Below, in pieces: positions 8,588-29,954 of a stretch of 42,855 nt of DNA (position 1 is the first letter of the stretch; each line of letters starts with the position of its first letter). A program made the translations under genes and the position numbers. Source of the DNA: Lachnospiraceae bacterium (GTDB taxonomy: Bacteria > Bacillota > Clostridia > Lachnospirales > Lachnospiraceae); assembly GCA_014799405.1 (NCBI GenBank), contig JAAVIA010000002.1:1-42855 (forward strand). The letters are read 5' to 3'. The notes beneath the pieces were generated by a model. That model had not been told where the DNA came from. It worked only from the letters and a program-made list of their open reading frames with translations, and made no database searches.

Positions 8588-8945
8588 CAAAAAAATAAAC
8601 TTACATCTCTAATCTTTAGAGACGCAAGTTTTGCGCGGTACCACTCTAATTCATACATTAAATGTATGCACTTATCAGGATACGGACTCAGTCATATATC
8701 CTCCTGCTATAACGGTCAGGCTCCGTCCAAGTCTACTGATACCATCAGGTACCGTTCAACCGGCTGCTCCAAGGCGAGTTCGCATATATCACAACATCAC
8801 GAATGTCATAACATACAATCCACCAAATACTGTCTCACACCACCCGACAGCTCTCTGAAATCCGGTAAATTCCTACTATTCCTTTTCATCGCTTTTCCAT
8901 ATTTACAGGAAGCTTGCTTCCATTTAAGAAACTTTAACATATTTT
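8588..8945 (-). promoter_or_regulatory. T-box riboswitch (leucine) leader of leuA
   Basis: On minus strand: GATGAAAAGGAATAGTAG, AGAGAGC...GGTGTGAGAC, specifier region GAACTCGCCTTGGAG (CTC at 8776-8778), T-box AGAGTGGTACCGCG (8634-8647), then terminator hairpin AACTTGCGTCTCTA/TAGAGATGTAAGTT and T tract. Confidence 0.93.
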
Positions 8946-24076: not shown

Positions 24077-24778
24077 ATGAACGAAAAAATCCTTTTGGTG
24101 GACGACGAAAAAGAAATAGCCGACCTTATGGAAGTTTACCTGACAAATGACGGCTACACGGTATATAAATTTTATAACGGTGCAGATGCATTAAAATGTA
24201 TTGCTGAGGTTGAATTTGATTTGGCAATTTTAGACGTTATGCTCCCCGATGTTGACGGCTTTCACATTTTGCAGAAAATACGGGAACTCTTTTTTTATCC
24301 TGTCATTATGCTCACCGCCAAGGTTTCGGACAATGACAAGATAATGGGGCTTACAATGGGTGCCGATGATTATATTACAAAGCCTTTCAATCCACTTGAG
24401 GCGGTTGCAAGGGTAAAAACGCAGCTAAGGCGGTATAAAAAATACAACGTCACGTCCCCTGCCATGACCGATACTACCGGAGAATGTGACATAAGAGGTC
24501 TTTTCTTAAGCAAAGAAAGTCACAAGTGCTATCTTTATGAGCAGGAGCTTCACCTTACGCCAATTGAATTTTCCATACTTTGGTATCTCTGCGAAAATCA
24601 GGGCAGGGTCATTTCCTCCGAGGAGCTGTTCGAGGCTGTGTGGGGCGAGAAATATCTTGACAACAATAATACGGTTATGGCGCACATCGGAAGACTGCGA
24701 GAGAAAATGAACGATACGTCAAAAAATACAAAATTTATAAAAACAGTATGGGGAGTGGGATATACAATTGAAAAATAA
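24077..24778 (+). CDS. VanR/OmpR-like response regulator
   Basis: ILLVDDEKEIADLMEVYLTNDGYTVYKF REC domain and winged-helix DNA-binding domain; start set at MNEKILL (ORF opens at 24002). Confidence 0.9.
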   Translation: MNEKILLVDDEKEIADLMEVYLTNDGYTVYKFYNGADALKCIAEVEFDLAILDVMLPDVDGFHILQKIRELFFYPVIMLTAKVSDNDKIMGLTMGADDYITKPFNPLEAVARVKTQLRRYKKYNVTSPAMTDTTGECDIRGLFLSKESHKCYLYEQELHLTPIEFSILWYLCENQGRVISSEELFEAVWGEKYLDNNNTVMAHIGRLREKMNDTSKNTKFIKTVWGVGYTIEK

Positions 24779-25898
24779 AAAACAGAAAAACAAGGATTTC
24801 AGTTCAATCAAAACAAAAATATTTTTTCAGACAATTCTTATGGTTTTGGGTGCAATAGTATTTGTTTGGTTCTTATACAATGCTTTTATTTACGCAAATT
24901 TCGGGAACTGGTTTGTATACGTGCTGGAACATTTTTTTAAGATGGAGTATTATGACGCCCTTACCTTTTACCACAACCACATACAAAGATACTCCGCCAC
25001 TATAATTGAGCTTGCAATGGCGGCATTATTTTTTATCATTTTTCATTTTTACCTTAAATCCTTTACAAAATATTTTGAGGAAATCAACAAGGGAATCGAC
25101 ACGCTTGTAAAAGAGTCAGAGGAGGATGTTACGCTTTCACCGGAGCTGGCCTCCACTGAAAAAAAGATAAATTCCATACGACACACCCTTTCAAACAGAA
25201 AGCTGGATGCACAGCTTGCCAATCAACGTAAGGACGACCTTGTAATGTATCTTGCCCACGATTTAAAAACACCCCTTTCCTCTGTCATTGGATATCTGAC
25301 GCTTTTAAAGGATGAAAATATGATTTCGGAAGAAACACGGGAAAAATACCTGTCCATAGCTTTAGACAAAGCAGAGCGTCTTGAGGATTTAATAAATGAG
25401 TTTTTTGAAATCACAAGATTTAACCTGGCAAACATTCCCCTCGAATATGGTAAAATAAATCTTACAAGAATGCTCGAGCAGCTTATATTTGAGTTTCAGC
25501 CTATGCTCGCAGACAAAAAAATAACATGTGAGCTTAATGCGGATGCAGACATCATGATATCCTGTGATGCCGACAAGCTACAGAGGGTATTTGATAATAT
25601 TCTAAGAAATGCCGTTAATTACAGTTACGAAAACACCAATATTAAAGTAATCCTAAAATCAGATACAGACAATGTATTCATCAGTTTTTCCAACGAAGGA
25701 AACACAATTCCTTCCGAAAAGCTTGAAAGGATATTTGAGCAATTTTATCGTCTTGATACAGCAAGAGGCACAGGAAGTGGCGGCACAGGCCTTGGACTTG
25801 CCATTGCGAAGCATATTGTTGAGCTTCATAAGGGAACCATAACTGCAAAAAGCGAGGATAACATCACATGCTTTGAGGTCGTGCTTCCCACCTCATAG
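24768..25898 (+). CDS. VanS-like sensor histidine kinase
   Basis: Two TM segments, H-box LVMYLAHDLKTPLSSVIGYL, G boxes and GGTGLGLAIAKHIVELHKG; overlaps upstream regulator. Confidence 0.9.
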   Translation: MKNKKQKNKDFSSIKTKIFFQTILMVLGAIVFVWFLYNAFIYANFGNWFVYVLEHFFKMEYYDALTFYHNHIQRYSATIIELAMAALFFIIFHFYLKSFTKYFEEINKGIDTLVKESEEDVTLSPELASTEKKINSIRHTLSNRKLDAQLANQRKDDLVMYLAHDLKTPLSSVIGYLTLLKDENMISEETREKYLSIALDKAERLEDLINEFFEITRFNLANIPLEYGKINLTRMLEQLIFEFQPMLADKKITCELNADADIMISCDADKLQRVFDNILRNAVNYSYENTNIKVILKSDTDNVFISFSNEGNTIPSEKLERIFEQFYRLDTARGTGSGGTGLGLAIAKHIVELHKGTITAKSEDNITCFEVVLPTS

Positions 25899-25962
25899 AA
25901 AAATTGTAATAAATTGCATATAAATGTTATAAGCTGTTTATAATAGAAAGCAAAAGCACGAG

Positions 25963-26006
25963 TCGCTTTGTTTATGTACAACCGGTACATGACAAAGCGA
26001 TTTTTA
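25963..26006 (+). terminator. Terminator-like hairpin in leader of first vanY-like gene
   Basis: TCGCTTTGTTTATGTAC AACC GTACATGACAAAGCGA TTTTTATT; TATAAT upstream. Confidence 0.8.
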
Positions 26007-26063
26007 TTGCCATAGGCTATATGCCACAGGTCTAAGATTCTTTCTAAAAAGGAGACAACAGCT

Positions 26064-26927
26064 ATGAACAACAATAAGAGACGAAAAAAACAATACCGCA
26101 TTTTAAGGCAGCAACTTATTATTTTGTGCTTTACAGCCGCCGTTTTATTGACCTTGATTATAAACCTGTCTTGGAAGTCAGATACCTCTGATAAAGCGTA
26201 TACCGCTGCATATTCTGAAAACAACAACAGCATAGATACAGACAACAGCACAGAAACTGATAACAGGATTATATCGGAAAACCAAATTGTTCCCGCAAGC
26301 TCCCAAAATAATAACTTGACGCTTTCACAGGAAGCAACAGAAATATATAAGCGAAACAAAAGCCTGCTTATACTTGTAAATACCGAAAATCCTCTGCCTG
26401 ATAGTTACGAATTCAGCAGGCACACCTTAAACAGCGGATTTGTAATAGATGAACAGGCGTATATTGATTTTTACAGCTTTACCAAGGCATGTAATGATGC
26501 AGGTTTCCACTACAATATTATTTCCGCATACAGAGACAGGGAAACCCAACAGGGTATTATTAACAGAAATGTGAGCGAGTTTATGCAAAAAGGCTTAAGT
26601 GAAGCAGAGGCAATGGAAAAAACCTACGAAACCGTTCAGCGTGTAGGATGCAGCGAGCATGAGACAGGACTTGCCATTGATCTTTCCGATGAGAAGATTT
26701 TTTCTCTTACGGAGGATTTAGAGACAAATCCTACCGTGAAATGGTTTATGGAAAACTGCTGCGACTACGGCTTTATTTTAAGATATCCAAAGGAAAAGGT
26801 TGATGTTACGGGTATAGATTATGAGCCCTGGCATTTCAGGTATGTAGGTCAGGAGGCCGCCAAATTTATGAGCGAGCATAATCTTACCCTTGAAGAATTT
26901 TACCTGCTCCTGCTTTCAACTTCGTAG
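26064..26927 (+). CDS. D-Ala-D-Ala carboxypeptidase, M15B / VanY family, membrane-anchored
   Basis: SEHETGLAIDLS and YEPWHFRYVG metal/active-site motifs; N-terminal signal anchor. Confidence 0.92.
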   Translation: MNNNKRRKKQYRILRQQLIILCFTAAVLLTLIINLSWKSDTSDKAYTAAYSENNNSIDTDNSTETDNRIISENQIVPASSQNNNLTLSQEATEIYKRNKSLLILVNTENPLPDSYEFSRHTLNSGFVIDEQAYIDFYSFTKACNDAGFHYNIISAYRDRETQQGIINRNVSEFMQKGLSEAEAMEKTYETVQRVGCSEHETGLAIDLSDEKIFSLTEDLETNPTVKWFMENCCDYGFILRYPKEKVDVTGIDYEPWHFRYVGQEAAKFMSEHNLTLEEFYLLLLSTS

Positions 26928-26990
26928 GAAAATCGTAAGAATTTGAATATAAAAATGTAAGCTGTTTATAATAGAAAGCAAAAACACTAG

Positions 26991-27034
26991 TCGCTTTGTT
27001 TATGTACAATAGGTACATGACAAAGCGATTTTTA
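26991..27034 (+). terminator. Terminator-like hairpin in leader of second vanY-like gene
   Basis: TCGCTTTGTTTATGTAC AATAG GTACATGACAAAGCGA TTTTTATT; near-copy of the hairpin at 25963. Confidence 0.8.
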
Positions 27035-27098
27035 TTGTCACAGGCTAAAATATTATATGCCTCAAAGCTAAGATTATTTTTAAAAGGAGAGAACCGTT

Positions 27099-27875
27099 AT
27101 GAGCAACATTAAGAGAAGAAAAAACCAATACCGTATTTTAATGCAGGTACTTATTATTTTGTGTTTTGTCATTGCAGTTTCTTTTATTCTTCTTATAAAC
27201 CTGTTTGGGAAATCAGATAAGAATTCATCATATACCTCTGTATTTTCCGAAAGCAGTAATGATGTGGGCACAAACGAAATTATTTTGGACGCCCAAGCTT
27301 CCACCGAAAACAAACAAAATGATGATTTTCAAAATAATGATTGGTACTTAATTTTAGTAAACCGTGACCATCCACTGCCTGACAACTACACTATAAACAC
27401 GGTAACCCTTTCAAACGGACAAATAGTGGATGCACGCATGTATCCTTATCTACAGGAAATGTTTGACGATATGAGGGCAGATGGCATTTATCCCGAAGTT
27501 GTTTCGGGCTGGCGCACATACGAAAAGCAACAGCAGTTAATGGACGAAAAAATACAGGAATATGTTTCGGAGGGATATTCATATGAGGATGCTAAAGCAA
27601 AGGCGGAGGAATGGGTTGCAGTTCCGGGCACAAGCGAACATCAGCTTGGACTTGCAGTTGATATAAATGCAGACGGTGTCAACTCATACGGATACGAGGT
27701 TTACGACTGGCTTTTGGAAAACGCCTGGAAATACGGATTTGTAAAACGCTATCCTGAAGATAAGACGGAAATCACAGGCATAATAAACGAGCCTTGGCAC
27801 TACCGCTATGTAGGCTATGATGCCGCAAAGGAAATGACGGAGAAAAACCTCTGCCTTGAGGAATATGTAAAGTAA
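27099..27875 (+). CDS. D-Ala-D-Ala carboxypeptidase, M15B / VanY family, membrane-anchored
   Basis: GTSEHQLGLAVDINAD and NEPWHYRYVG motifs; N-terminal signal anchor similar to upstream paralog. Confidence 0.93.
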   Translation: MSNIKRRKNQYRILMQVLIILCFVIAVSFILLINLFGKSDKNSSYTSVFSESSNDVGTNEIILDAQASTENKQNDDFQNNDWYLILVNRDHPLPDNYTINTVTLSNGQIVDARMYPYLQEMFDDMRADGIYPEVVSGWRTYEKQQQLMDEKIQEYVSEGYSYEDAKAKAEEWVAVPGTSEHQLGLAVDINADGVNSYGYEVYDWLLENAWKYGFVKRYPEDKTEITGIINEPWHYRYVGYDAAKEMTEKNLCLEEYVK

Positions 27876-28334
27876 GAGGCTGTCGCACTAGGTCTGCATA
27901 CATTATAACACAAACATGTTTTTATTAGTCTTTGTAGGCACGAATTGCCCACACGATACAGCTATACTGTAAACTAAAAACCGTTTGAAGACGTCGGTAC
28001 TTGAGTTGGTGATTGGGATTGCCTGCATAGGTGGCTGAAAAACCCGCTCTCGCTCGTCTCCGCCGTAATGGTACTAAAAATTGCCGGCTTAAGATATCCT
28101 TATATAAAATCAGGATACTTTATGCCGGCAATTTAAGTACCAACGTCTTCAAACGGTTTTTCTGCCACCTATGCAGGCAATCCCAACCACCAACTCTTAG
28201 TACCGCTACGTCTGAATCGAACGAAAGTGAGTTTTTAGTTACAGTATACGCTGTATCTGTGGGCAACCCGTAAGTAACTAACAGATAAAAACATGTTTGT
28301 GTTATACGATATGCAGTCCTAGGCGACAGCCTCC
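27876..28334. repeat. Long imperfect palindrome filling a convergent intergenic gap
   Basis: GAGGCTGTCGCACTAGG...CCTAGGCGACAGCCTC ends; AACACAAACATGTTTTTA/TAAAAACATGTTTGTGTT; GGGATTGCCTGCATAGGTGGC/GCCACCTATGCAGGCAATCCC; apex AAATTGCCGGC/GCCGGCAATTT. Confidence 0.9.
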
Positions 28335-29954
28335 CTACAATCTCTCAAGCAGCCCTTCAAGTCCTTCTTCGTCATATATTTGCTTATAATACATAACCTC
28401 ATCCTTAATAAGCTCATCTATGACCTGCATTCCAAGGAGCTCCACCGGTGCCTTATCATCGGTCATAATATAGCTGCCTGGCTCATATGCCATAAGACAT
28501 CCCTCCAGCTTTTGTTCCATAAAATTCTTCAATTCACCCTGCAATGGATTATCCGATGATAACGCCTCCACCTCAGCGTAAAAGGTTTCCATCATAATCT
28601 TGTTATTTGAGGCAAAAAGCTGACGGTTTGTGGTGCCTCCCACATCAACAGTATAAACCTCATCAAACACCTGTGAAATGGTATCTGCAAGATGCTGATT
28701 TATATCACCCTCACTGTTCCCCCTCATATTCATATTTACAACCATAACTCCGTCAGGTGTAAGATGCTCCTTTACGAGGGTAAAAAATTCAACGGATGAC
28801 ATCTGAAAAGGGATTGTTATATCCTGATAAGCATCCACCATTATAACGTCATATTTCTCATCTATTGCATTTAAGTACGCCCTTCCATCATAGGTTGTAA
28901 CCTTCACATTCTCAGGCAGCTCAAAATATTCTCTTGCAAGCTTTGTTATTTTTTCATCTATCTCAACTCCTATACAGACAACATTATCAAAGTACCTGCT
29001 GCACTGGGTTGCATAGGTTCCCGTCCCCATACCAAGTATAAGAATATTCATGCCGTCCCTTTTTGACAGACCTGCCATAAGGGGCGCTGCCATGGCATAA
29101 TCATAATACATGCCCGTAAGTCTCTCCTCCTTGACATAAACAGACTGTACGCCGAAAAGAACATTTGTGGAAAGATATACCTTCTCATCATTTTCCCTAA
29201 CCTGAAGGTAGTTGTATATGGATTCTCCCTCATAGGTCAAATCCTTTTCCCAAAATGCAAAGCTGTCCGATGAACCAAAAATGCAGCTTATAATAAGAAT
29301 TACAACCGAGACGGCAGACTTAACCTTTCCCGTCCTACAGCTTACAAAATATATAATTCCAAGTAGCATAAGCACCCCTGCAAATATAAGAAATGTAATA
29401 GACGTTCCCACCGCAGGTATGGTTACAAATGTAGGCAGGAATGTTCCGATTATACTTCCTATCGTATTAAATGCCCCAAGGTTACCCACAACCTTTCCGC
29501 TTTCCTCAAGGCTTTCCACTGAATATTTTGCAAGCGATGGTGTGACCGTCCCAAGAAGAAAGAGCGGAAACACAAATATAACCATACAGGCAAAAAAAGC
29601 CGCCCATATGAGAAAGTTGTTATTAACTGTAAAAACAAGAATTGCCGAAACCCCCAGAATAATATATTTCCCCACAACAGGAATAAGCGCTATCCATACG
29701 GCTGCAATTAAAATTCTGCCGTAAAGCTTATCGGGATTTGGATTTTTGTCCGCACTTCTTCCACCGTATATATTGCCAAGCGCCATTGCAATCATTATTG
29801 TTCCAATAATGATTGTCCAAACGATTTGGGAGGAACTGAAATACGGGGCAAGAAGTCTGCTTGCTCCAAGCTCCACAGCCATTACGGACATTCCTGCAAA
29901 AAATTCCGTAAGGTACAAAAACATTTTACTTTTTAATATTCTTTTTTCACTCAT
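28335..29954 (-). CDS. Fused MFS-type membrane domain / spermidine synthase-like methyltransferase domain
   Basis: N-terminal multi-TM FFAGMSVMAVELGASRLLAPYFSSSQIVW; C-terminal ILILGMGTGTYATQCSRYF...YDVIMVDAYQDITIPFQMSSVEFFTLV; start set at MSEKRIL. Confidence 0.88.
   Translation of the reverse strand: MSEKRILKSKMFLYLTEFFAGMSVMAVELGASRLLAPYFSSSQIVWTIIIGTIMIAMALGNIYGGRSADKNPNPDKLYGRILIAAVWIALIPVVGKYIILGVSAILVFTVNNNFLIWAAFFACMVIFVFPLFLLGTVTPSLAKYSVESLEESGKVVGNLGAFNTIGSIIGTFLPTFVTIPAVGTSITFLIFAGVLMLLGIIYFVSCRTGKVKSAVSVVILIISCIFGSSDSFAFWEKDLTYEGESIYNYLQVRENDEKVYLSTNVLFGVQSVYVKEERLTGMYYDYAMAAPLMAGLSKRDGMNILILGMGTGTYATQCSRYFDNVVCIGVEIDEKITKLAREYFELPENVKVTTYDGRAYLNAIDEKYDVIMVDAYQDITIPFQMSSVEFFTLVKEHLTPDGVMVVNMNMRGNSEGDINQHLADTISQVFDEVYTVDVGGTTNRQLFASNNKIMMETFYAEVEALSSDNPLQGELKNFMEQKLEGCLMAYEPGSYIMTDDKAPVELLGMQVIDELIKDEVMYYKQIYDEEGLEGLLERL

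Follow-up and report, generated by a model that had tools for sequence, protein, structure and literature searches.

Within the window, by which we mean the whole 42,855-nucleotide stretch of Lachnospiraceae DNA analysed here, two vanY genes each follow a leader that probably represents a VanR-activated promoter with its -10 element at the tip of an intrinsic terminator's hairpin. This explanation of the leaders is computational as a whole. According to it, a polymerase that has passed through vanRS (copy 1) or vanY1 (copy 2) would transcribe both arms of the hairpin, and the RNA would fold and stop at the U-tract; as read-through would end there, the target gene would be insulated from the preceding operon. 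Phosphorylated VanR would bind direct repeats at -83, -72 and -50, and transcription would begin about 7 nt past the loop -10. Such an RNA would begin in the 3' arm and continue into vanY, and, as it lacks the 5' arm, the terminator could not form.

If this is true, one stretch of DNA serves as a terminator for the passing polymerase and as a promoter for the recruited one, with little leak and full inducibility. It would explain how VanR targets stay off despite their position right behind the regulator's own operon, and it would be an economical natural device in which only the position of the transcription start decides whether an RNA escapes termination. It also offers a route from sequence alone to VanR promoters and their predicted start sites. 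A literature search on promoter/terminator overlap, of incomplete coverage, found nothing relevant, so the novelty of the arrangement is provisional.

Gene content and the two leaders

The VanR and VanS genes adjoin the vanY pair on its 5' side, and both score above their NCBIfam cut-offs (Table 1). The products of vanY1 and vanY2 fall below the 400-bit cut-off of NCBIfam NF000473 (VanY-B/VanY-G, vanY_BG), with 135.3 and 270.9 bits, respectively. Leader copy 1 is located between the VanS stop codon and vanY1, and copy 2 between the vanY1 stop and vanY2.

Table 1. Features of the vanRS-vanY1-vanY2 region (window coordinates)
Feature	Position	Strand	Evidence or remark
VanR-like OmpR-family response regulator	24077-24778	+	NCBIfam NF033117, 396.6 bits (cut-off 350)
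VanS-like histidine kinase	24768-25898	+	NCBIfam NF033091, 429.8 bits (cut-off 400)
Copy 1, promoter-in-terminator element	25886-26011	+	covariance model R1, 61.7 bits; promoter apparently decayed, hairpin intact
Copy 1, VanR-box region	25893-25938	+	TCATAG (25893), TTGTAATAAATT (25904), TTATAAGCTGTT (25927)
Copy 1, TTGCAT	25914-25919	+	
Copy 1, TATAAT	25939-25944	+	
Copy 1, terminator-like hairpin	25963-26000	+	
Copy 1, loop -10 position	25977-25982	+	TACAAC
Copy 1, U-tract	26001-26008	+	TTTTTATT
vanY1, VanY-family peptidase	26064-26927	+	Pfam PF02557, 114.4 bits (cut-off 25); ATG at 26064
Copy 2, promoter-in-terminator element	26915-27039	+	covariance model R1, 93.9 bits
Copy 2, VanR boxes	26922-26966	+	TCGTAGGAAAA (26922, across the vanY1 stop), TCGTAAGAATTT (26933), ATGTAAGCTGTT (26955)
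Copy 2, TTGAAT	26943-26948	+	
Copy 2, TATAAT	26967-26972	+	
Copy 2, AAAACA	26981-26986	+	-35-like, as published for PYG (PMC4405338); spacer 18 bp
Copy 2, terminator-like hairpin	26991-27028	+	
Copy 2, loop TACAAT	27005-27010	+	proposed VanR-promoter -10; box register and apex enrichment
Copy 2, U-tract	27029-27036	+	TTTTTATT
vanY2, VanY-family peptidase	27099-27875	+	Pfam PF02557, 121.4 bits (cut-off 25); ATG at 27099

An earlier note on this DNA had described duplicated leaders, each with a TATAAT promoter followed by a hairpin, before both vanY genes, and these are present as described, with spacers of 19 bp (copy 1) and 18 bp (copy 2) between the -35-like hexamer and TATAAT. It was also right that the leaders are alike while the proteins have diverged: identity between the copies is 93% over the 90-nt leaders and 78% over a 143-nt stretch spanning the start codons, as against about 42% over the whole VanY proteins. 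Both hairpins are as strong as had been claimed (-21.5 to -23.3 kcal/mol, z -5.0 to -5.6, no shuffle being equally good), as well as terminator-like, conserved and tied to the vanY promoter. What had been overlooked were the VanR-box repeats before the hairpin, the adjoining VanRS genes on the 5' side and a second -10-like element in the loop, TACAAT or, in copy 1, TACAAC.

A search of the 2.8-Mb genome for the 24-nt leader core, allowing up to 3 mismatches, found these two leaders only. An Rfam search of both leaders gave no match, and a simple promoter/terminator scan detected neither of the hairpins. Some features count against a start from the loop element. By sigma-70 fit it is inferior to TATAAT with TTGAAT or TTGCAT, which the genus copies retain, and TG directly abuts TACAAT in the window, while a standard extended -10 has one more base between them.

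Two other features of the window were recorded. Directly 3' of vanY2 (27880-28335) lies a nested palindrome of about 450 bp that belongs to a repeat family, with 103 matching pieces in the genome and one further near-full copy (94% identical); it looks like a miniature transposable element. On the minus strand, positions 8615-8898 contain an ordinary T-box leader 5' of a 2-isopropylmalate synthase-like gene.

VanRS loci with a -10 in the hairpin apex

The survey covered 100 VanR loci drawn from the bacterial family, and 114 VanRS pairs were analysed overall. A terminator-like hairpin follows shortly after VanS in 53 of the 114 pairs, mostly with a -10-like apex. Even in distant VanRS-VanY loci, a long hairpin with a U-tract appears again after VanS, differing in sequence and length, and its loop holds a -10-like box, usually preceded by TGn (TGGTACAAT, TGATAAAAT, TGGTAGAAT). 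An extended -10 (TGnTAnnnT) occupies the apex in 27 of 37 VanRS hairpins, compared with 1 of 150 terminators from control loci (p 3e-23).

In total, we collected 44 non-redundant VanR-linked sites with an apical -10, typically TGGTACAAT, in a terminator-like hairpin (42 after VanS and 2 after vanY1); owing to kinship among the loci, these counts do not represent independent events. The scan gave no site in 70 of the 114 VanRS loci, some of which (L051, L134) show one by eye. The most constrained positions of the hairpin are those of the -10. TATAAT 5' of the hairpin occurs in the six genus rows and at one other locus, and is absent from 37 of the 44 sites. The genes 3' of the sites encode VanG-type D-Ala ligases in many loci, and elsewhere VanY, VanZ, a penicillin-binding carboxypeptidase, a C39-like peptidase or an ABC transporter. 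Similar sites were found in further families of the phylum.

VanR boxes in register with the apical -10

The VanR motif consists of 12-bp direct repeats, YCGTANGAAAWT (PMC4405338). The apical -10 was picked from the hairpin alone, and GTANGA, the core of this motif, was then sought upstream. Among the 52 occurrences of GTANGA in the 44 sites, 49 lie at -83, -72, -61 or -50 from the apical -10, i.e. in 11-bp steps, where about 2 were expected. As the distance from the VanS stop to the site varies (42 to 217 nt) while the register holds, the boxes and the apical -10 shift together. The boxes of copy 2 fit this register exactly, at -83, -72 and -50.

Because the VanR boxes are in register with the loop -10 and TATAAT is limited to the genus and one other locus, we take the loop element to be the VanR promoter. 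Judging from sequence, the vanY start is more likely to lie inside the hairpin, for copy 2 near the predicted position 27017. TATAAT is better regarded as a genus feature, possibly a secondary, genus-specific -10. The same observations, i.e. the box register and the restriction of TATAAT to the genus plus one locus, speak against the RNA of about 60 nt from TATAAT suggested in the earlier note.

Evidence for a terminator

A stable hairpin and a U-tract after a gene, the combination by which an intrinsic terminator is recognised, are present here, and a U-tract follows the hairpin in 41 of the 44 sites. The stem covaries: an alignment of 22 sites shows changes on both sides at 16 of its 19 pairs, a level reached by 0 of 500 shuffles and by no slid structure. 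With stem boundaries set by Watson-Crick pairs only (an earlier count of 124:20 was biased by the stem search), the stems contain 92 G.T against 28 A.C combinations (p 2e-9). This excess of G.T over A.C implies that pairing is maintained on the transcript strand, the 5' arm included, and, as the 5' arm is transcribed only from upstream, that it is kept in RNA arriving from upstream. Median folding over all sites is -24.1 kcal/mol for the read-through RNA versus -3.5 kcal/mol for the loop-start RNA, and for both window copies the folding of the loop-start RNA is not more stable than that of shuffled sequences (z -0.24 for copy 1, 0.48 for copy 2).

The orientation of the upstream neighbour was compared at covariance-model matches off the standard position, together with L028. 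Three matches with a same-strand upstream ORF (L293, L299, L302) have the terminator. At L294, an orphan vanY, and at L301 the upstream gene is divergent; boxes and -10 are in register and the terminator is absent. L028, in which VanRS and vanY are divergently oriented, has a -50 box and TGATAAGAT in register and lacks a U-tract, though the region still folds at -17.6 kcal/mol. L298 is a misfit, with an apparent same-strand upstream ORF and yet no terminator. The presence of the terminator thus appears to track a codirectional neighbour, mostly in the predicted direction and over few sites (three divergent). A search of 397 genomes with the gapped pattern CGTANGANTT-58-TGNTANNAT was overall no better than its reversed control and yielded no new divergent site.

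Alternative explanations

The earlier note had proposed that the hairpin acts as an attenuator: transcription starts at TATAAT, the hairpin halts most RNA after about 55 nt, and a signal lets the remainder reach vanY. We consider this improbable, although each of the six genus copies does have TATAAT and a -35-like hexamer ahead of the hairpin, and a U-tract follows the hairpin. Alignment of the leader in relatives, which had been recommended as a check, shows TATAAT, hairpin and U-tract to be kept, but the leader 3' of the hairpin is unconserved within the genus and only about 12-15 nt separate the TATAAT start from the hairpin, so that no antiterminator region is visible, nor is a sensor. 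Furthermore, the 37 sites without TATAAT share the box/hairpin layout, and divergent sites drop the hairpin while keeping box and -10, which is unexpected if the hairpin regulated the downstream gene. The outcome named in the note as refuting it, a hairpin that simply terminates the upstream gene with no promoter before it, fits as far as the terminator is concerned, while a start at TATAAT might still occur in the genus. Accommodating both starts, the loop promoter might coexist in the genus with a TATAAT promoter that overlaps the VanR boxes and gives a short terminated RNA or basal read-through, or is blocked by bound VanR. This is somewhat less unlikely than attenuation, but still doubtful: in the genus, all copies retain each of the two -10 elements, apart from the loop -10 of copy 1, and the -50 box falls within the spacer of the TATAAT promoter, whereas outside the genus TATAAT is unconserved save at one locus, and the copies are few and closely related.

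Instead, the inverted repeat surrounding the -10 might act as DNA, either as an operator (e.g. a repressor site) or as a cruciform. Dyad operators are known in van systems, an example being the imperfect palindromes at PUG to which VanUG (vanG system) binds. We nevertheless regard this as very unlikely, as stems of differing sequence remain paired from locus to locus, an excess of G.T over A.C on the transcript strand is not what a DNA site would give, and the U-tract is nearly constant. Least probable of all is a trans-acting small RNA. An RNA of about 55 nt with an intrinsic terminator would be expected if TATAAT is used; however, Rfam gave no match, the stem can change in sequence provided that pairing persists, and the strongest constraint on the hairpin falls on the -10 positions. 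Operator, cruciform and small RNA were set aside on these grounds.

Comparison with known VanR promoters

Among the closest described promoters is PYG, the vanG resistance promoter of Enterococcus faecalis BM4518. It is reported (PMC4405338) to have a -10 TACAAT, a poor -35 AAAACA with a 16-bp spacer, and 12-bp direct repeats, the VanR footprint covering -100 to -43, at a site after the regulatory genes. By this description its geometry matches that of copy 2, TACAAT and AAAACA being common to both and the spacer being 16 versus 18 bp; the available text mentions no hairpin at the -10. The loci differ in that vanU and D-Ala-D-Ser ligase genes are absent beside the vanY genes of the window. Of the features that characterise PH/PYG-type promoters, copy 2 has linked VanR/VanS, direct repeats 5' of the -35, and TACAAT with AAAACA; in copy 1 the boxes are degenerate and the hexamer is TACAAC.

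In the vanA promoter PH of Tn1546 (L235, 6407-6463), a 22-bp hairpin (-32.8 kcal/mol) carries the -10-like TAGACT at its apex, and VanR-like motifs lie exactly at -83 and -50 from this hexamer. The layout is that of the window, although the U-tract (UUUUCGUUCUU) is weaker and the promoter drives vanHAX. The idea can thus be tested on a well-studied promoter. The vanSB-vanYB interval of vanB (L238), whose VanR is more distant, contains a terminator-like hairpin with seven U and TATAAC in the loop; its likeness to the window is that of hairpin and loop -10. It seems reasonably likely that an apical -10, with the start placed in the terminator of the upstream operon, is a general design of VanR promoters, from gut Lachnospiraceae to clinical vanA. 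Transcription attenuators and riboswitch terminators likewise place a terminator hairpin before the affected gene. Unlike them, the present leaders show no visible sensor or antiterminator, and escape would hinge on the start position rather than on refolding.

Apparent decay of copy 1 and other hairpins

The leader DNA as a query matches this genus only, and relatives were therefore sought via the VanR and VanY proteins. Among 37 genus genomes, the window genome included, the module is present in 3 others, two with VanRS and one VanY and the third with VanRS and two VanY. TATAAT, hairpin and U-tract are kept in all six genus copies, two of which show a compensated stem pair, C-G in place of T-A, and the sequence from the hairpin to the ribosome-binding site has diverged.

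Copy 1 differs from its relatives in each of the boxes at -83, -72 and -50, in one extra base between boxes, and in the last base of the loop -10, these changes being private to it; both hairpin arms are intact. The loop -10 is kept in the other genus copies. The copy 1 promoter looks decayed, with the consensus lost at every promoter element, and this copy has probably kept its insulating function while its own VanR start has been weakened.

Beyond the two copies, covariance-model matches in the same genome comprise one partial hairpin without boxes and weaker ones. The former (G000:C9:10538-10616, L269) is a lone hairpin between convergent genes; its apex contains TGGTACAAT, and it has a T-run, lacks VanR boxes and may be what remains of a former VanR site. 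At two of the surveyed loci (L067, 4866-4910; L077, 4823-4867) the 3' arm of the hairpin includes the vanY ribosome-binding site, so that a read-through RNA would mask vanY translationally as well.
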